Below, piece after piece: positions 26,572-38,030 of a DNA stretch of 64,000 bases (the stretch's first letter is position 1; every line of letters starts with the position of its first letter). Below the pieces are notes generated by a model. The model did no database searches. It saw only the letters and a list, made by a program, of their open reading frames with translations, and was not told the origin of the DNA. The position numbers and the translations under genes were made by a program. Location of the stretch: assembly GCA_001708385.1 (NCBI GenBank), contig CP012388.1, positions 1,054,001-1,118,000 on the forward strand, written 5' to 3'. This stretch comes from Flavobacterium psychrophilum. GTDB lineage: Bacteria > Bacteroidota > Bacteroidia > Flavobacteriales > Flavobacteriaceae.

Positions 26572-26617
26572 ACCTAAGCAAGATATTTTTTATAAAGCCC
26601 ATCTAAGCGCATTTATT

Positions 26618-26693
26618 AAAAGCTATTTCCTGCTATCGGCTGTATCTGCCCTTTGGCCTTGCCGGGCAGGATGCCGCCTCTATCAGGGCTAGG
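26618..26693 (+). ncRNA. Candidate structured RNA or dispersed intergenic element
   Basis: The stretch folds into one long interrupted hairpin of five nested helices: AGC/GCT (26621-26623 with 26688-26690), CCTG/CAGG (26629-26632 with 26684-26687), CGGC/GCCG (26637-26640 with 26673-26676), CTGCCC/GGGCAG (26646-26651 with 26664-26669) and an apical GGC/GCC (26555-offset pair at 26655-26657 with 26661-26663). That is 20 Watson-Crick pairs, with CTAT repeated in the internal loops. It is G+C-richer than its surroundings and lies outside any gene. I recall similar sequences between genes in other Flavobacterium genomes, and the named Bacteroidota motif Flavo-1 is a candidate match; neither is verified here. 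Confidence 0.5.
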
Positions 26694-26756
26694 CACAAAC
26701 TGTAACACTTTCTTTAAACTTTTTTTCTGCCGTTTTAACTTTTACATTACTTATAA

Positions 26757-26791
26757 AAACAAACCCCGGGCAGCTTTCGCTGTCCGGGGTT
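26757..26791 (-). terminator. Terminator of the giant repeat-protein gene
   Basis: AACCCCGG (26762-26769) pairs with CCGGGGTT (26784-26791), extended by CAGC/GCTG around the loop TTTC. On the minus strand a T-rich run follows. It lies 26 bp beyond the stop codon. Confidence 0.85.
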
Positions 26792-26817
26792 CTTAGTTAT
26801 TATGGTTTTCTATTTGT

Positions 26818-29800
26818 TTATCTCTTCAGTGAGAAATGCGATTTAAATTCTTTGGTTACCGTTGTGGTGCCATCAAACTCAGGGTAGGTAACGGTGAACC
26901 AGTAGTCCGTTGCCGGTACCGGGGTACCGTTTAGTGTTCCGTCCCATCCGCTGCTCTCAAGGTCCGGGCTTATCTGTTTGATAAGCTTGCCATAGCGGTC
27001 AAAGATATAGATCACCGATCCTGTACCACTCAACCCTATGATGTTCCACGTGTCATGGAAACCATCACCGTTAGGGGTAAAGAAGTTAGGGTAGTCTACA
27101 ATGCTTACCCCATTTAAGATTAGCTCCTGGCATGGAAAATCTGTTTTCTCATCCCATACCGTAACCGTGTGGTAGCCCGGGGATACATTGGTGAATACCG
27201 GAGATTCCTGCCTTGGGCCGTTATCCAGCTGGTAGGTGTACTCCCCGTTTCCTTCTATGGTTACCGTTATGGTCTGGTTATCGCTAAAGTAGTTGGTTAC
27301 ATAGTACCCCTGGCCTATTGCTGATGCCTGCCCTGATTCGATTACCGTAAAGCCTGCCGATTCATCCGACACACATTCCAGTGGCGCAGGGCCCGTTACT
27401 ACTACGGTGTATACGCCGCCTGTTTTGGCGATGTAGCTTCCTGAGTCATCACTATCGGTTAGCAGTACCCCGTCTTTGTACCAAAGATAGGTGTGCCCGT
27501 TTGGTACTACACCACTGTTAAGTTCCAGCTCGCCTTCGCTTGCCCCCCATTCGATACATACTGTATCGCTGCCATCTGCTGTGGTGATAACAGGCTCTGC
27601 CCTGCGCTCTACCCTTAGGGTTACCGTAGTGGTGGCACTGCATGGAGTGTCCTGTACCGTATCGCTGTTGGTTACTACGATCCAGATCACCTGGCTCTCC
27701 GGAGTCTGGTTGGTATAGTTTTCAGGGTCTTGTATCGGTTGCGGTGCAGGTACTGTAGACGGGTCAATATCGTAATAGCTTACAAGGAACACAGCCGGGT
27801 CCTGAGCGCCAAGTACTTCAGGTGCAAGTAGGGTTAAATCCCATCCTGAGGCCCTGCCGTCATTCTGGTCGTCGGTATCACATACCGCCGCAGGGTCTGC
27901 CACAGGGTTGGCTACTGCCTGCTGCTCTACGATAAGCTCAAGCTCTTTTACGATCCTGCACCCTGTGTCGTTGTTCACTACTTCTATGTATACCGTTGCA
28001 CTGCCTGTTACTACATACCCTGTTATTGGCGTGGCACGTGTGGTAAGGGCTGCATCGCTAAAGTAGCCTATAGTGTAAATGGTACCTGTATTACCGCCAA
28101 GGGCTGTCTCTACATACTCCTTCAGGTTAAAGGCTGTCGGGGATGCAGGGGTGTCGTTACAGATACCATAGTCGGCAAGGTCGGCTATCGGTGGCAGTGG
28201 GTTCACTATTAGTTCAAGCTCCACTATCTGGAAGCACCTCAAATCAGATGGGTTATTGGTATTGGCCTCAACCCTTACCCATACACTGCCACTGGCACTG
28301 TTGTGGCTGGTTGGGTCAGGTATCGCATTGGTGCCTGCCTGGGCATCCTCTTCTGTGGTATAATAGCTGAACAGGTAGTTAGTACCGTTGTTGCGGATAT
28401 CATCCTGTGCAAGGGTCAGGTCAAAGGGCTCACTGCCTACCTCTGTAGTATCCTGGTCGCATACCTCAAGTGGGGCTGGGTTAAAGTTGGGTACAGGTAG
28501 CGGAAGCACCCTTATGGTTAGGGTGGTATAGCTAACACACCCTTGGGTGGTGGTTACCCTTACCCAGATCGTTCTTGGGTTTTGGGCTGCTCCATTGCTG
28601 TCTGTATTTACATACGCCTTAGGGTCAGCGATTGCCACGGCGGTGCTGTCTGTTTTTGGGTCGGTGGTAAAGTAGTCTACAACGTAGTCCATGCCTACCC
28701 CATCAGGGCCCAGTATCTCATCGTCTTTTTGTGTAAGGTCAAATTCTGCAATACCGTCATTTGGCAGTGCCTCGTTACATACGGCAAGGGGTGTTGGGGT
28801 TACCAACTGGTGTGGCTTGTTGATATGGATGGTAAAGCTCGTAAGGCTATAGCAGCCTGCGGTATTCTCTACCCTTACCCAGATCACCTGCCCATCCCTG
28901 GCAATGTGCCTTGCAGGGCTGGCAATACCGTTACTACCCGCATCAGCATCAGCCTTGGAAAGGTAATAGGTGATTGTTACTTCCACAGGGGCTACTGCTT
29001 CTTTTATCTGTGTTTCATATACTGTAAGGTCTGTCCTTAGCGCCCCGTCCTGCCCATTGTTGTCGGTATCATCACAAAGGGTGATATCCTGTAGCTTTGG
29101 TGCCTGCGGTGCAGGGGTTACTATAAGGGTAACCGGGAATGGCGTGGTGTTAAAGCAGCCTGTAGTACTGCTCACTGCCCTTACCCAAAGGGTTTGTGTG
29201 CCCGGGTGGTCATTCCTGTAGTCGGTCGTATTACCGATCGGGTTGGCCCCCGATAGTGCTTCCTCCGCCGTTAGGTGGAAGGTGATCACAAGGCTTGTAT
29301 CACCATTGGCAAGGGTTTCTTTTAAGGCTTCAAGGTTAAACTCACCGATACCGTTGCCATCGGTATCACATACCGTTAGCTCATCCTGTGAGGGAAGGGT
29401 AAGTACCGGCTGCGGCTCTACCCTGATATCAAGGTAGCCAAGCCTGAAGCAGCCTGTAGTGGTTACCGTAAAGCGCACATAAAGGCTCTGTACCTGTGAA
29501 GTGTTCTCATACGCCTGTGCCTGGGCGTCGGTAAGGGCATTGGTGCCCCCTTGCGCATCGGCAAGGGTGGTATGGAAGGTTACCGCTACACCGTTTAGGT
29601 TTTCATCGGTGATGAATTTATCGATGGTAGTGGTAAGGTCAAAGGTCTCTTTGTTGGCCGGCAGTGTGGTATCACACAGCGAGTAGCTGTACTCATTGGT
29701 AATAAGCACCGGAAGGGCATTCACCACAAGGCGTACCGCTACGATATAGAAACAGCCTGTGGCTGTATTGGTTACTTTGGCATACACCGTAGCTGTTGCC

Positions 29801-32800
29801 GATGGGTAGTTGCCCGGTGTACCGATAAGGCTGGCAGGTGTAGCTGCAGCGTCGGTGTAATAGTCTACTGTGTACTGCGCAGGGTCTAAGCCTGCAAGTA
29901 TCTCAGCACTCTGGCTGTTCAGGTTAAAATGGGCTATGCCATCAGTATCGCTGGTACCGTCATCACACAGCGCATAAGGCTGCGCCGGGCTGTGGGCATC
30001 AGGCCTTGGGTTTACAATCAGCACAAGGGTTACCGTATCATAGCAGTCCGTAAGGTCCGACTGTACCCTTAGGTACAGGGTCTGGGTACCTGCTACGATA
30101 TTGTCATAGGCCTCGGGTGACGGTATCGCATTTACATTTAGGTCGGCATCGCTCTGGGTCTCAAAGGCGCTTACCGTTACATCGGGGATAGCAGCCTCAA
30201 TAGCCTGCATTGTAGGTACAAGGTTAAACCTTGCAAAGCCGTCGTTGTTGTCATCACACTCTGCAATGGGCGCAGGGGTGGTGGCAATAGGTGCAGGGAT
30301 GACATTTAACTCCACACGGGCTACCCTTACGCAGTTCGTGGTAGGGTTAATTACCCTGGCCCAGATATCGGCATCGCCTGACAGGTAGGTTGGGCCCGGT
30401 TCAAAATCAGCGCCACCGGCCAGTGCCTGGGCTTCTGTCTGGTAGAAATACACCACATAGCTTGCTGAGCCTGCCGTTACCGCTGTTGCAATTTCATCAA
30501 GGTCAAAATCAGCCTCGCCAGGCAGTTCTTCACACTCGGTGGCAATGAAGTCTGCAGGGTCGGTGCTTAATACAGGTAACGGGTTTACTAAAATGGTAAA
30601 TGAAGATACACTGCGGCAGCCAAAGGTTGTTGCTACCCCTACCCAGATTGTCTGCTGGTTAGGGGTTGCATTTGGATAGTTCTGCGGTGTTGTTATCGGG
30701 CTGGTATTGTTTTGTGCGTCTGCCTGGGTAAGGTAATACTGAACCGTAAGGCTCGCATCCCCGCCCCTTGCTGCATCGTCGTTTAAGGTTAAGTCAAATT
30801 CTTCTATACCGTCAGGTGAATTGTTGTCATCACACAGGGTAAGCTGGCTTACAACAGGTACAGCCGGGCGTGGGTGTACTATCAGTGTCAGCGGTACTAT
30901 GCTGCGGCAGCCTGTTGTGGTGCCTTCCTGTACTACACCTGCATATACCACTGTCGAGTTGCTGTAATGGCTCGATGGGTCCGGGATGGCATTTACATTT
31001 AGCTGTGCATCACTCAATGTTGGGTACCATGTAATAGTTAATCCCGACTGACCGTTTAGCACTTCGGCATTTCTTTGGGTCAGATCAAAAGTGGCAAAAC
31101 CTGCATTGTCAACTTCGCATGCTTCTAATACAGTGGGCTCAACTATGGTTGGGGCATTATTTATCGTAACTACGAAATCAGAATCATCTGTACAAACCGT
31201 AGTAGCATCTCCGGTTACAGCATGAATATAAACTGTCTGGGTTTCGGTTATGATAGTTCCTGCAGGAAGAAGGTCTCCCGTTCCTCCTGGGCCGGTGTAG
31301 TAATTACCAACAGTTAATGGCTGTAATTCATATCCGTCACAAGCAGCAACATCTGCAAGTTCCTGAACAACAGGTGCAGGATAAATAGTTACAACAAAAC
31401 TGTCTTCACTTGTACAATTTTCAGGTGTTGAGTTAGAAGCTGCAAAAACATATACGGTTTGAGAAGTATATAAAGTAGAATTTGCTGCTAACTGAGTACC
31501 GGCTCCTCCGGGAGCGGTAAAATAATTTCCTGTTGCAAGAACAGGTAAGGTATAACCAACATTACTACAAGCAAATGCATCATCAGGCGCAACAGCCTGT
31601 GGTGTTGGTGTAAGTATAAGATCTAACGATGTTACATCGAAACAAGTTGTACTCTTAGTATTGCTAACACGTGCGAAAACAGTACCACCTGTAGAAGTAT
31701 AAGCCGTTGGATCCGGAATTGAAAGATCATTATCATTAGCTCCCGGCAAAGTAGTGTGATAGGTAACCGCATAGTCCGTTGCAGGAGTAAGGGCACTTAA
31801 GATAGCGGCATTCCTAATTGTTAAGTCAAACACTTCAGAACCACTATTGTCTGTATCACATTTCTGGATATCGACTGGTTCTGTAGCTGTAGGATAATTG
31901 CTTACCTTAACTTTATATTCGAAATACACACGGCAGCCGGTTGCAATTTCGTCCGAAATTCTACCATATAACGTACGTTCTTCACCTTGATTAATAACGT
32001 AATTCTGCATCTCAGCAGTACTCATAGGAGGCCAACCAATCTGCGCCTCTTCAGCCGTAGCATAAAGAGTTAGCATATAATAATCAGGATCAAGTCCGTT
32101 AAGTACCTGATCATTAATTTCCGTTAAATCTACAGTCGCCACAGGTTCATCAGTACAGATCACAACATCATCGACATCATTAAACTCAAATGGAACAGTT
32201 TCTACATCCACCTCGTCTTCAACAACATAAGTAGAAAGATCACACATAGTGTAAGTAGCTCGTCCTATATAAGTAGTTGGCTCTGTAGGGCAAACCTCAA
32301 AAGGCATCCCCGATCCTATCGATACTGTAGGATTTGCAGCGTCATACCATTTGATATCAACAACACTGGGACCATCAGGAGTAAACCTCATTGCCCTATT
32401 ATGCGCGGTAAAATTAATATTGTTCATTCCTGGAGCGTATAGAGATGTAGTTGCATCCTTACGTACACCAACAGCAGCTCTTCCCTCATTCCAGGTACAA
32501 CCGGTGCTAAACTCTCTATCCTTAATATAAACTTCGATAACATTAGTGGTTTCATACAACACCATCATACTTGTCATCGTATTACCGTCTGGACAACTAA
32601 AATGTTTTGTATTAAAAATACTGAATACAAGAACCCTGTTGGGTGCCGCACCTTTAACACTCCAAAGGATATTGTGATCAACCGGATTTTTTATGCTGGG
32701 TTCATCGCCGGGTTGCGTATCCTGTAAAACTCCAAAAATAGAATAATTAGTTATCGCCGGAGGATTAGCACCCTGTAAATTCCATGGTGCCTGAGAGTTA

Positions 32801-33231
32801 ACAGCAGGAATTGGCGGAATAGCTGTAGGATCACCCGGAAGGGATGGCTGATACTGCCCACCAGGCACAACGCCTGCAATACTAAAAGTAATAGCTCCAT
32901 TAGTATTTATAAGTGCCTTATCATACATCTGCCCGTAAAAGCAAAATTTAAAAGGTAAATCCAGCACACGAGACCATATATCATCAATTTTAATAGACTC
33001 TACTGCCCCACCATCTGTACCGTCAAATTTAAAAGGCGGCGACCATGGTATCTCATCAACCTTGTACTGTGTTGTAGCCCCTGTATCAAAATAAACAGCA
33101 TTTAGGGTTGTACAGTCACCGGGTTTACAAATCGGAGCTCCCGTGTATACAGTAACATCTGGTTGCGGCTGGGCAAACATGTTTAAACTAATGAAACTGA
33201 ACAAAAGCAATAATAGGTACTTATTCTTCAT
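26818..33231 (-). CDS. Giant repeat protein with gliding-motility/T9SS type B C-terminal domain
   Basis: A 2137-residue secreted protein. The signal peptide is MKNKYLLLLLFSFISLNMFAQ. Residues about 22-345 form a non-repeat head with a GAITFSIAG-type fold. About 16 units of 75-105 residues follow (about 345-1880), most with a CD/CDD start, a FDLT element, a YY or YF strand, an SxDA element, and an IWVRV...TGC end. Units at about 548-694 are a different, shorter type with NYFTAPGG and NYYTGPGG. An Ig-like region (about 1880-2045) and a CHU_C/TIGR04131 domain (YPNFFTPNGDGFHDTWNI, then FDRYGKLIKQISP) end the protein, marking it as T9SS cargo anchored or released at the surface. It is probably an adhesin. 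Its 3' two-thirds is much richer in G+C than its 5' third. Confidence 0.93.
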   Translation of the reverse strand: MKNKYLLLLLFSFISLNMFAQPQPDVTVYTGAPICKPGDCTTLNAVYFDTGATTQYKVDEIPWSPPFKFDGTDGGAVESIKIDDIWSRVLDLPFKFCFYGQMYDKALINTNGAITFSIAGVVPGGQYQPSLPGDPTAIPPIPAVNSQAPWNLQGANPPAITNYSIFGVLQDTQPGDEPSIKNPVDHNILWSVKGAAPNRVLVFSIFNTKHFSCPDGNTMTSMMVLYETTNVIEVYIKDREFSTGCTWNEGRAAVGVRKDATTSLYAPGMNNINFTAHNRAMRFTPDGPSVVDIKWYDAANPTVSIGSGMPFEVCPTEPTTYIGRATYTMCDLSTYVVEDEVDVETVPFEFNDVDDVVICTDEPVATVDLTEINDQVLNGLDPDYYMLTLYATAEEAQIGWPPMSTAEMQNYVINQGEERTLYGRISDEIATGCRVYFEYKVKVSNYPTATEPVDIQKCDTDNSGSEVFDLTIRNAAILSALTPATDYAVTYHTTLPGANDNDLSIPDPTAYTSTGGTVFARVSNTKSTTCFDVTSLDLILTPTPQAVAPDDAFACSNVGYTLPVLATGNYFTAPGGAGTQLAANSTLYTSQTVYVFAASNSTPENCTSEDSFVVTIYPAPVVQELADVAACDGYELQPLTVGNYYTGPGGTGDLLPAGTIITETQTVYIHAVTGDATTVCTDDSDFVVTINNAPTIVEPTVLEACEVDNAGFATFDLTQRNAEVLNGQSGLTITWYPTLSDAQLNVNAIPDPSSHYSNSTVVYAGVVQEGTTTGCRSIVPLTLIVHPRPAVPVVSQLTLCDDNNSPDGIEEFDLTLNDDAARGGDASLTVQYYLTQADAQNNTSPITTPQNYPNATPNQQTIWVGVATTFGCRSVSSFTILVNPLPVLSTDPADFIATECEELPGEADFDLDEIATAVTAGSASYVVYFYQTEAQALAGGADFEPGPTYLSGDADIWARVINPTTNCVRVARVELNVIPAPIATTPAPIAECDDNNDGFARFNLVPTMQAIEAAIPDVTVSAFETQSDADLNVNAIPSPEAYDNIVAGTQTLYLRVQSDLTDCYDTVTLVLIVNPRPDAHSPAQPYALCDDGTSDTDGIAHFNLNSQSAEILAGLDPAQYTVDYYTDAAATPASLIGTPGNYPSATATVYAKVTNTATGCFYIVAVRLVVNALPVLITNEYSYSLCDTTLPANKETFDLTTTIDKFITDENLNGVAVTFHTTLADAQGGTNALTDAQAQAYENTSQVQSLYVRFTVTTTGCFRLGYLDIRVEPQPVLTLPSQDELTVCDTDGNGIGEFNLEALKETLANGDTSLVITFHLTAEEALSGANPIGNTTDYRNDHPGTQTLWVRAVSSTTGCFNTTPFPVTLIVTPAPQAPKLQDITLCDDTDNNGQDGALRTDLTVYETQIKEAVAPVEVTITYYLSKADADAGSNGIASPARHIARDGQVIWVRVENTAGCYSLTSFTIHINKPHQLVTPTPLAVCNEALPNDGIAEFDLTQKDDEILGPDGVGMDYVVDYFTTDPKTDSTAVAIADPKAYVNTDSNGAAQNPRTIWVRVTTTQGCVSYTTLTIRVLPLPVPNFNPAPLEVCDQDTTEVGSEPFDLTLAQDDIRNNGTNYLFSYYTTEEDAQAGTNAIPDPTSHNSASGSVWVRVEANTNNPSDLRCFQIVELELIVNPLPPIADLADYGICNDTPASPTAFNLKEYVETALGGNTGTIYTIGYFSDAALTTRATPITGYVVTGSATVYIEVVNNDTGCRIVKELELIVEQQAVANPVADPAAVCDTDDQNDGRASGWDLTLLAPEVLGAQDPAVFLVSYYDIDPSTVPAPQPIQDPENYTNQTPESQVIWIVVTNSDTVQDTPCSATTTVTLRVERRAEPVITTADGSDTVCIEWGASEGELELNSGVVPNGHTYLWYKDGVLLTDSDDSGSYIAKTGGVYTVVVTGPAPLECVSDESAGFTVIESGQASAIGQGYYVTNYFSDNQTITVTIEGNGEYTYQLDNGPRQESPVFTNVSPGYHTVTVWDEKTDFPCQELILNGVSIVDYPNFFTPNGDGFHDTWNIIGLSGTGSVIYIFDRYGKLIKQISPDLESSGWDGTLNGTPVPATDYWFTVTYPEFDGTTTVTKEFKSHFSLKR
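27600..32200 (-). repeat. Tandem 75-105-residue repeat array within the giant gene
   Basis: Repeat units are recognisable at DNA level on the plus strand, for example ACCCTTACCCAGATC at the same place in units near 28555 and 28870, and close variants near 28275, 29176 and 30640. The array runs through the base-composition change at about 31.05 kb. It is a protein-coding repeat, not CRISPR. Confidence 0.8.
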
Positions 33232-36049: not shown

Positions 36050-36991
36050 ATGATACATAGTTTAAGCATCATATGGAATCAGCCTGAAGGCTTTAACCTT
36101 GGGCCAATTATGCTACGTTACTATAGCCTGGGCTTTGTTATAGCATTTGGACTTGGATGGTACGTAATGAAAAAGATCTACGACCGTGAGGGAGAATCGG
36201 TTGAAAAACTGGATAAGTTATTTATTTACACTCTTATCGCTACACTCTTAGGCGCAAGACTTGGACATGTATTTTTCTATGATTGGGCTTACTTTAGCCA
36301 GCACCCTGCCGAAATACTTTTACCGGTACGTTTTAAACCTGAATTTGAGTTTACAGGATTTGCCGGGCTTGCAAGCCACGGAGCCGCTATAGCGATAATA
36401 CTTGCAATGATATGGTACAGTAAAAAAATTATTCACCGACCATTGTTATGGATGCTTGACAGGGTTGTAATCCCTGTAACCAGCGGAGGTATTTTTGTTA
36501 GGCTGGGTAATTTCTTTAATAGTGAAATACTTGGTAAAGAAACAACTGCAGATACACCAACTTCCATAAAATTCATACGTGGTGAAGAATGGTTAGGCAA
36601 ACGCGAGGTCGTTGCTCGAACCAAAATAGAGGACTACAACGCAGCATACGAAGCTGTGGAGAAAAACCCTCAGTTTACCGATATATTTGCAAAGATACCT
36701 TTCAGGCATCCTGCCCAGCTTTACGAGGCAGCAGGTTACGTAGTTGTATTTGCAATTATCTATTATATGTACTGGAAAACCGATGCACGTAAAAAACACG
36801 GTCTTATTTTCGGTGTATTCCTTGTACTACTTTGGGCTGTACGTTTTTTTGTTGAATTCGTTAAGGAAAGTCAGGGTGGTTTTGAAGGAGAAAACCCAAT
36901 ATTACTAACGGGCCAGTGGTTAAGCATACCGTTTATCCTTGCAGGTTTTTACCTGATATTTACCGCAAAGAACAGGACAGAGACTTTATAA
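36050..36991 (+). CDS. lgt: Prolipoprotein diacylglyceryl transferase, copy 1
   Basis: Inner-membrane enzyme that adds diacylglycerol to the lipobox Cys, the first step of lipoprotein maturation. It has 313 residues and about seven membrane helices. The catalytic landmarks are present: GLASHGAA (essential His), RLGNFFNSEILG (essential Arg and Asn), HPAQLYEA, and RFFVEFVKESQGG. It has its own promoter and terminator and is followed 94 bp later by a second full lgt. Two lipoproteins are encoded in this window alone (SOD, YD-repeat). Confidence 0.96.
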   Translation: MIHSLSIIWNQPEGFNLGPIMLRYYSLGFVIAFGLGWYVMKKIYDREGESVEKLDKLFIYTLIATLLGARLGHVFFYDWAYFSQHPAEILLPVRFKPEFEFTGFAGLASHGAAIAIILAMIWYSKKIIHRPLLWMLDRVVIPVTSGGIFVRLGNFFNSEILGKETTADTPTSIKFIRGEEWLGKREVVARTKIEDYNAAYEAVEKNPQFTDIFAKIPFRHPAQLYEAAGYVVVFAIIYYMYWKTDARKKHGLIFGVFLVLLWAVRFFVEFVKESQGGFEGENPILLTGQWLSIPFILAGFYLIFTAKNRTETL

Positions 36992-37022: not shown

Positions 37023-37085
37023 ATGCCTTCAAGCCTTTCATATCTATCGGCTTTACCTATTTTTACCGAAAATCTTACTATTAAA

Positions 37086-38030
37086 ATGACACACGCTTTA
37101 AGCATTGTATGGAATCCTCCTAAGGGGATCGATCTGGGTTTTATAACAATCCACTTTTACAGCCTTTTATGGATGGCCGCCTTTGCCCTTGGATGGTTTA
37201 TTATGAAGAAAGTCTTCGACCGTGAAGGTGAATCTACCGAAAAACTTGACAAACTATTTATCTACACTTTGGTCGCTACAATGATTGGAGCACGTTTGGG
37301 CCATGTGATCTTTTACGAATCTGAACTGTTCACTAAAGATTTTTTCAGTGTGTTTCTGCCCGTTAGTTTTAATCCGAAATTCGAATTTACAGGCTTTAGA
37401 GGACTTGCCAGTCACGGCGCTGCAATAGGCGTTGTCCTGGCAATGATATGGTTTAGCCGAAAAGTAATCCATCGCCCTTTTTTGTGGGTAATGGACAGGG
37501 TTGCTTTACCTGTTACCAGTGGTGGAGTTTTGATACGCCTTGCTAACTTTGTAAACTCTGAAATACTGGGTAGCGAAACCACAAAAGATGTTCCTACAGC
37601 CGTTAAATTTATAAGAGGCGAAGACAGATTATCAGAAAGCCATGCTATGCAGATTACAGGAGAGCAAAATGCAAATGCAGCTTATGAAATGATAGAGCAC
37701 AACCCCAAATTTACATCTATACTGGAACAAATTCCTTACAGACACCCTGCGCAGTTGTACGAAGCATTCGGATACGTTATTGTTTTCGCAATTGTTTACT
37801 ATATGTACTGGAAAACTGATGCCCGAAAAAAACACGGACTTATCTTTGGTGTATTCCTTATTCTTCTTTGGGCCGTACGCTTTATCGTTGAATTTGTAAA
37901 ACAAAGCCAGGGAGGTATAGAAAGCGACCTTCCGGGTGGACTATTAACAGGACAATGGTTAAGCATACCATTTATACTGGTAGGATTCTATTTGGTATTT
38001 ACCGCGAAGAACAGAACCGAAACATTATAA
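37086..38030 (+). CDS. lgt: Prolipoprotein diacylglyceryl transferase, copy 2
   Basis: A 314-residue paralog of the upstream lgt, about two-thirds identical by eye, highest in the last third (YYMYWKTDARKKHGLIFGVF is shared exactly). The essential motifs are kept: GLASHGAA, the Arg and Asn of RLANFVNSEILG (one Gly to Ala change versus copy 1), HPAQLYEA and RFIVEFVKQSQGG. Both copies therefore look active. The frame is open back to 37023, but the ATG at 37086 starts at the same residue as copy 1 and is preferred. It has no obvious promoter of its own beyond the 60 bp after the terminator. Confidence 0.93.
   Translation: MTHALSIVWNPPKGIDLGFITIHFYSLLWMAAFALGWFIMKKVFDREGESTEKLDKLFIYTLVATMIGARLGHVIFYESELFTKDFFSVFLPVSFNPKFEFTGFRGLASHGAAIGVVLAMIWFSRKVIHRPFLWVMDRVALPVTSGGVLIRLANFVNSEILGSETTKDVPTAVKFIRGEDRLSESHAMQITGEQNANAAYEMIEHNPKFTSILEQIPYRHPAQLYEAFGYVIVFAIVYYMYWKTDARKKHGLIFGVFLILLWAVRFIVEFVKQSQGGIESDLPGGLLTGQWLSIPFILVGFYLVFTAKNRTETL

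Follow-up and report, generated by a model that had tools for sequence, protein, structure and literature searches.

Structure and Base Composition of the Gene

The analysed stretch of 64,000 nucleotides (positions 1,054,001 to 1,118,000 of contig CP012388.1; hereafter, the window) was taken from the genome of Flavobacterium psychrophilum (G000), which consists of one contig of 4.14 Mb; other genomes and loci are designated by G and L numbers, respectively. A single open frame on the minus strand of the window encodes an adhesin-like type B cargo protein of the type IX secretion system (T9SS). The features of this focal gene are listed below in window coordinates, with the G+C content of third codon positions given as GC3.

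26818..33231, minus strand: T9SS type B cargo gene, adhesin-like, 2137 amino acids (aa), single open frame; the protein comprises its own head, a chain of Ig-like repeats of about 90 aa, and a C-terminal sorting domain
31156..33231, minus strand: 5′ part, codons 1–692, GC3 0.27; unshared except for codons 605–692
31156..31417, minus strand: codons 605–692, common only to the copy at 2.81 Mb (about 88–99%), GC3 0.20
30981..31095, minus strand: composition change point, codons 712–750, from GC3 change-point analysis
26818..31155, minus strand: shared block, near-identical at seven other loci, GC3 0.52
29662..30279, minus strand: two Ig-like repeats, modelled as beta-rich with a predicted local distance difference test score (pLDDT) of 95
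27608..29132, minus strand: inner tract, codons 1367–1875, 1525 bp, 96.6% identical to the copy at 1.20 Mb
26821..27099, minus strand: T9SS type B sorting domain (TIGR04131, 1.5e-30; CHU_C, PF13585)
26589..26817, minus strand: noncoding DNA 3′ of the stop codon, shared with other copies, G+C 0.42–0.43

The sorting domain scored above the cut-offs (105 bits vs 35 for TIGR04131, and 41 vs 27 for CHU_C), and no Pfam match was found in the 5′ part (codons 1–692). The best single GC3 change point was located at codon 747 with a two-log-unit interval of 712–750, GC3 being 0.278 upstream and 0.526 downstream. Its log-likelihood gain was 61.9 vs at most 9.4 in 1000 permutations, and the G+C contents of the first and second codon positions remained nearly flat across the step (0.51 to 0.56 and 0.45 to 0.46, respectively). 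A two-change model separated an additional low stretch at codons 497–716 (31085–31743), with GC3 of 0.19, below that of the head. Among the 52 other open reading frames (ORFs) of at least 150 aa in the window, 35 were measured, and none exceeded GC3 of 0.40. The initial annotation had placed a change of composition at about 31.0–31.15 kb, inside a repeat unit (about residues 700–745), and described a 3′ part unlike its neighbours in G/C-ending codons; the measurements agree with it in position and in contrast to the neighbouring genes, and they show the change to be sharp. The G+C counts of 60-base lines given there, namely 19 (32521–32580), 38 (29521–29580), and 28 (28561–28620), were all exact.

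Multicopy Block and Concerted Evolution

In total, nine loci with long DNA matches, including the focal one, were found in G000. The DNA identity to the focal copy was 95.4–98.7% across 3.7–4.6 kb at seven loci, whereas the eighth, at 1.20 Mb, has only the 1525-bp inner tract in common with it; the copies were mutually 94–99.8% alike across long matches. At the protein level, the 3′ part matched eight other loci; identity was 89–98% where matches were longer and 72% at a locus sharing only part of it. The block is about 4.4 kb long, with a further 220 or so noncoding bp, and its sharing with the seven loci begins at focal codons 605, 693, 698, 805, 878, 878, and 977. The 5′ parts differ between the nine genes: DNA matches longer than 250 bp were absent except in one pair of heads, alike over about 300 bp directly beside the block, and some heads were related in protein (25–47%). 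Seven of the nine copies are long open genes, and two (L066 at 1.94 Mb and L067 at 3.84 Mb) are interrupted within the shared block. The same two genes, equal in length and ends, lie downstream of two copies (L062:12433-15131 and L064:12902-15600), suggestive of a recent segmental duplication.

Fully identical runs extended over 3005 bp between the focal and 2.81-Mb copies and over 3549 bp between the 2.81- and 4.14-Mb copies; they were flanked by stretches of 87–97% identity, so the copies are mosaic. The 3′ flank of the 1.20-Mb copy beyond the inner tract was just 70% alike, and the tract (27608..29132) evidently is a conversion tract. Paralogues were closer to each other than orthologues, since pieces of G000 and of a related species (G033) had only 64–75% DNA identity, the housekeeping yardstick for this genome pair being 92% aa for ValS and 89% aa for CysS. 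The mosaic structure, the inner tract, and the far greater likeness of the copies to each other than to the G033 pieces indicate concerted evolution by gene conversion. At the level of sequence, the comparison demonstrates that stalk and tail DNA is held near-identical between scattered loci by non-reciprocal recombination.

The initial annotation had proposed that the repeat block and C-terminal domain were replaced by recombination from a G+C-richer relative. Its mosaic is retained insofar as the gene has two histories joined inside homologous repeats. The G+C-richer source is not supported, as the 3′ block is multicopy within its own genome and no donor was found among the matches listed (best 120 of 1864). 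The G033 orthologue, truncated at codon 746 where its contig stops, rises at the same place, its last approximately 46 codons having GC3 of 0.50 after about 0.2. In G033, six heads and seven tails of the family all run out at the edges of contigs, the pattern that a collapsed repeat would give, and GC3 per 100 codons was 0.1–0.4 in heads and about 0.4–0.6 in the measured block pieces. Among other Flavobacterium relatives, GC3 climbs from about 0.27 to 0.5 ahead of a contig end in G016, from about 0.17 to 0.33 in a G028 gene that is likewise truncated by its contig, and from about 0.14 to 0.2 in the one long match of G013.

Position of the Composition Step Relative to the Edge of Homology

GC3 rises in all nine G000 genes of the set, from 0.25–0.35 to 0.49–0.53. 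In six of them, the change point lies at most 30 codons from the homology junction (change point/junction codons of 847/848, 929/935, 545/555, 760/734, 1067/1059, and 631/~632, the last being a second-level junction). In the focal gene, GC3 tended upwards with the number of sharing copies, being 0.28, 0.20, 0.43, 0.47, 0.49, and 0.53 in segments shared by 1, 2, 4, 5, 7, and 8 copies, respectively, a series that doubles as a gradient along the gene. In the genes aligned here, raised GC3 was shown to accompany membership of the recombining block. Ten other large adhesin-like ORFs of G000 had GC3 of 0.24–0.30, and two smaller ORFs neighbouring the 1.20-Mb copy had 0.35 and 0.40. A general effect of long adhesins is spoken against by these ten ORFs together with the 27 control ORFs described below.

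Recurrence in Other Genera, Controls, and Prediction

A search of 299 Flavobacteriaceae genomes revealed relatives of the block in 161. Ten genomes, one per genus, were picked for having two loci with near-equal search scores, not for G+C content. In all ten, the gene pair has a common 3′ block (91–100% DNA identity, 3.4–5.4 kb) and heads that are unmatched or just 66–75% alike. Block GC3 exceeded head GC3 in 10/10 genera by 0.07–0.52, and with G000 included, in 11/11 (sign test, p 0.001). Block GC3 also surpassed that of neighbouring genes in 10 of these 11 genomes and matched it in G127. The contrast was greatest in G313, with heads at 0.30, block at 0.82, neighbours at 0.41, and copies identical over 5420 bp.

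The controls were 27 ORFs of 1350–1750 aa from 20 loci in 20 genomes, fetched for weak matches and presumed single-copy. None of them had a GC3 step (rest minus head: 0.003, spanning −0.04 to 0.05). The prediction was tested on 17 further genomes apparently lacking a twin by the family search. The rise was absent in 12 and present in five, strongly in G146, clearly in G112, and mildly in G064, G088, and G354. A new twin search covered 12 of the 17 genomes. For G146, first taken as single-copy, a second copy was found (98–100% aa and 95.5% DNA identity across 4.1 kb), and the genes of G112 and G088 run into contig ends. Seven of the genomes covered by this search lack the rise, and the matches listed for them include no twin of equal score.

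Homogenised and Single Copies within Genus g47

In the genus of G313 (g47), 28 species were searched and 20 counted; six without a match at E 1e-60 were left out, as were G362, which is ambiguous (GC3 0.26, with 0.56 in the first 100 codons, and a gene truncated at the edge of its contig), and G372, represented by a tail only (GC3 0.80) with heads at contig ends. Block GC3 was 0.45–0.86 in 14/14 multi-copy (homogenised or collapsed) genomes and 0.20–0.36 in 6/6 genomes with a single copy or a diverged pair, the latter being G365 and G383 with copies of about 64–66% DNA identity (Fisher p 2.6e-5, without correction for relatedness). Multi-copy status was assigned from contig ends inside the block for G358, G359, G360, G366, G376, G379, G380, G381, G086, and G370. 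The last had appeared as an exception (one copy, GC3 0.80); its second head ends at a contig end within the block, and the last 1127 bp of that head are identical to the first copy.

In g47, blocks rich and poor in G+C fall on one tree and are related by descent. This tree omits G372, the second copies of G313, G364, G361, and G369, and the partial G378 gene, and G370 is still labelled single in it. It yields no more than three clean independent contrasts, each of which goes the expected way. The blocks were 48–74% identical to that of G313, except for G370 (98%) and the ambiguous G362 (42%). The heads of the diverged G365 and G383 genes belong to the same two types as those of the collapsed G360 pair, and one of these types is also carried by one homogenised gene each of G313 and G361.

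Spread into Noncoding DNA and Neighbouring Genes

The G+C content of the shared noncoding stretch after the stop codon was 0.41–0.46, compared with 0.20–0.34 for unshared DNA in the corresponding position or immediately after it; spacers of the window averaged 0.32. In G313, the shared segment extends across an entire neighbouring gene for a PorP/SprF family membrane protein, whose two identical copies had GC3 of 0.68. PorP was sought in 39 loci and found in 18 besides both G313 loci, with GC3 of 0.61 in multi-copy G370 and 0.14–0.45 in the other 17; PorP copy number was searched in G000 only. Relatives of the G313 copy were found in G382 (90% aa, GC3 0.45) and G363 (92% aa, GC3 0.34).

A second homogenised family was revealed in G000, comprising three PorP/SprF-like genes with 98–100% DNA identity and GC3 of 0.43–0.45 (L068:5987-6922 at 2.40 Mb, L072:4636-5571 at 2.11 Mb, and L263 at 2.67 Mb). 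An adjacent OmpA-like gene had GC3 of 0.45–0.47 in the homogenised pair and 0.36 in a diverged paralogue. Elsewhere in the window, the adjacent genes at 36050–36991 and 37023–38030 encode similar membrane proteins and form a tandem pair, presumably Lgt-like.

Origin of the Composition Step

GC-biased gene conversion (gBGC) is a known process tied to recombination, the existence of which is disputed in bacteria. Concerted evolution with gBGC is the best explanation of the data and, in our estimate, a probable one. Copies at scattered loci would pair and convert one another, and mismatches in the heteroduplex would preferentially be repaired to G:C. As such events accumulate, the block would drift to a higher synonymous G+C content than unshared DNA, and the composition step would mark the edge of homology. 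From the evidence above, we infer that the rise reflects gBGC. The wider proposition, that gBGC between surface-protein genes of one genome operates across Flavobacteriaceae and in places lifts synonymous G+C from about 0.3 to more than 0.8 inside one gene, is somewhat favoured.

Several observations weigh against this explanation. Three of the nine G000 change points do not lie near a junction; the fit is looser in the focal gene (change point 747 vs a start of sharing at 605–698), as in the 2.81-Mb copy, and in the 3.94-Mb copy, the change point (codon 444) precedes the junction. Some shared stretches are G+C-poor, namely focal codons 605–692 and the first gene downstream of the L062 and L064 copies (GC3 0.26), so that elapsed time must be assumed. 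Two loci of G022 (L089 and L090) are 98.0% identical across 4.6 kb, and yet GC3 is only about 0.33 in the block vs about 0.25 in the head, and neighbouring genes have similar values; the G127 block is 99.6% identical at GC3 of 0.20, equal to the background of 0.19. Conversely, no twin was found in the new search for the mild rises of G064 and G354, and codons ~1800–2200 of L277 in the draft genome G354 had GC3 of 0.48–0.61 with no second copy found. The three g47 contrasts are too few for significance alone, and substitutions were not polarised by an outgroup. Finally, the third-base gain is in C only in G230, G342, and G353 and in G only in G137 and G257, and plain gBGC does not predict strand-asymmetric gains. 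In the blocks of G137 and G257 (L126, L127, L142, and L143), the shift is from A to G only: 84–92% of NNR codons end in G, and the share of C-ending NNY codons is not raised. Polarity of exchange or another repair-linked bias is a possible cause of such shifts.

These genus-specific asymmetric shifts, A to G in two genera and T to C in three, would suit another recombination-linked process, such as mutagenic break repair with lineage- and strand-specific spectra that alters third bases. Such a process is considered unlikely, as total G+C content was above that of heads in 11/11 genomes and both G and C rose in five (G000, G099, G177, G216, and G313; both also rose, weakly, in G127). Import would mean that the native block gave way to a G+C-rich one of foreign origin, which later spread by copying to the other loci; this would account for codon usage unlike that of the genome and differing by genus, as well as for the sharp edges in G313 and G364. 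Import is distinctly unlikely: among the matches listed (best 120 of 1864), the nearest block outside its own genome had 54% aa identity, G+C-rich and G+C-poor g47 blocks share their tree, and PorP beside the G313 block is 90–92% identical to the G+C-poorer ones of G382 and G363. A separate event would also be needed in each of 11 genera. Third-position rare variants among eight G000 copies numbered 40 S>W (G or C to A or T) to 36 W>S, a near balance that fits GC3 of about 0.50 and not decay to 0.28–0.33 (p 6e-5 and 0.0025), although minor alleles are unpolarised and this evidence is weak.

Selection could act on the mRNA or the codon choice of the stalk, and it might be stronger there than elsewhere, because stalk codons are translated from several genes. 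In 11/11 genomes, however, the codon usage of the block resembled that of ribosomal proteins less than the codon usage of the head did (by just 0.02 in G230), which makes translational selection an unlikely cause; moreover, the rise covers noncoding DNA and PorP, and related stalks in single-copy genomes lack it, so selection is scarcely credible. A founder effect of internal repeat expansion was also rejected, as repeats are only 29–43% alike in protein and codon concordance was only 0.01–0.09 above expectation. With selection, repeat expansion, and import disfavoured, a process tied to recombination itself remains. Association alone does not give the direction, and G+C-rich DNA might recombine better, so that blocks already G+C-rich stay homogenised. 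This reversal is very improbable, given that GC3 was not raised in the 27 controls or the six single-copy or diverged g47 genomes and that low-G+C blocks are homogenised too (G353, G127, and G022).

Protein Architecture, Known Systems, and Significance

The best Foldseek match of the two modelled stalk repeats was grappling hook protein A of Aureispira (PDB 9fls and others; E 2.4e-6, query TM-score (TMq) 0.42, 14% identity), followed by immunoglobulin and cadherin domains; a sequence search of the stalk repeats against PDB at E 0.1 gave no matches. The hook protein is likewise a surface protein of Bacteroidota, and its fold similarity to the stalk is moderate. Among the heads of the nine G000 genes, one contains DUF11 and NPCBM_assoc and three contain PKD domains; the other five have no Pfam family above the cut-off. 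The set likely represents interchangeable heads, presumed to be adhesive, on one recombining stalk that displays and anchors them.

Rhs elements have a large conserved G+C-rich core and an A+T-rich variable part, occur in several copies per genome, and encode a YD-repeat protein with a variable C-terminal tip. The G000 set is their mirror image, variable at the 5′ end and constant at the 3′ end. It was not assigned to Rhs, since its variable part is N-terminal and PF05593 (RHS_repeat) reached only 21.6–21.9 bits in two of nine heads, under the cut-off of 22. Antigenic variation can rest on silent donor cassettes that supply a single expressed locus; that seven of nine G000 copies are long open genes speaks against such a system.

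In bacteria, G+C content has been tied to recombination independently of optimal codons, in a study of which one section covers intergenic regions (Lassalle et al. 2015, PMC4450053). There, recombination was detected per gene and compared with gene G+C, and words beginning with paralog or duplicat are absent from the main text; the G000 case differs in that conversion occurs between paralogues of one genome and the contrast, up to about 0.5 GC3, lies inside genes. Arms of primate X-chromosome palindromes are reported to be more than 99% identical by gene conversion with a GC bias (PMC8981503); these are eukaryotic and involve whole arms, and here parts of genes are affected. Dispersed bacterial rRNA operons are described as homogenised by gene conversion (PMC8022953, PMC6002687); in contrast, the present copies are protein-coding genes, one part of which is homogenised and changed in composition. 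Among the matches listed from one literature library, no paper dealt by title with gBGC between bacterial paralogues.

The case cautions against interpreting composition steps inside genes as horizontal transfer. If gBGC is the cause, a GC3 step within a gene would visibly mark the boundary of recombining DNA, and the family would offer a replicated within-gene demonstration of gBGC in bacteria. Recombining and non-recombining DNA sit side by side in one gene, and related species have homogenisation on or off; these contrasts remove many confounders and make the question of bacterial gBGC directly testable. These surface-protein genes provide a strong natural test of it.

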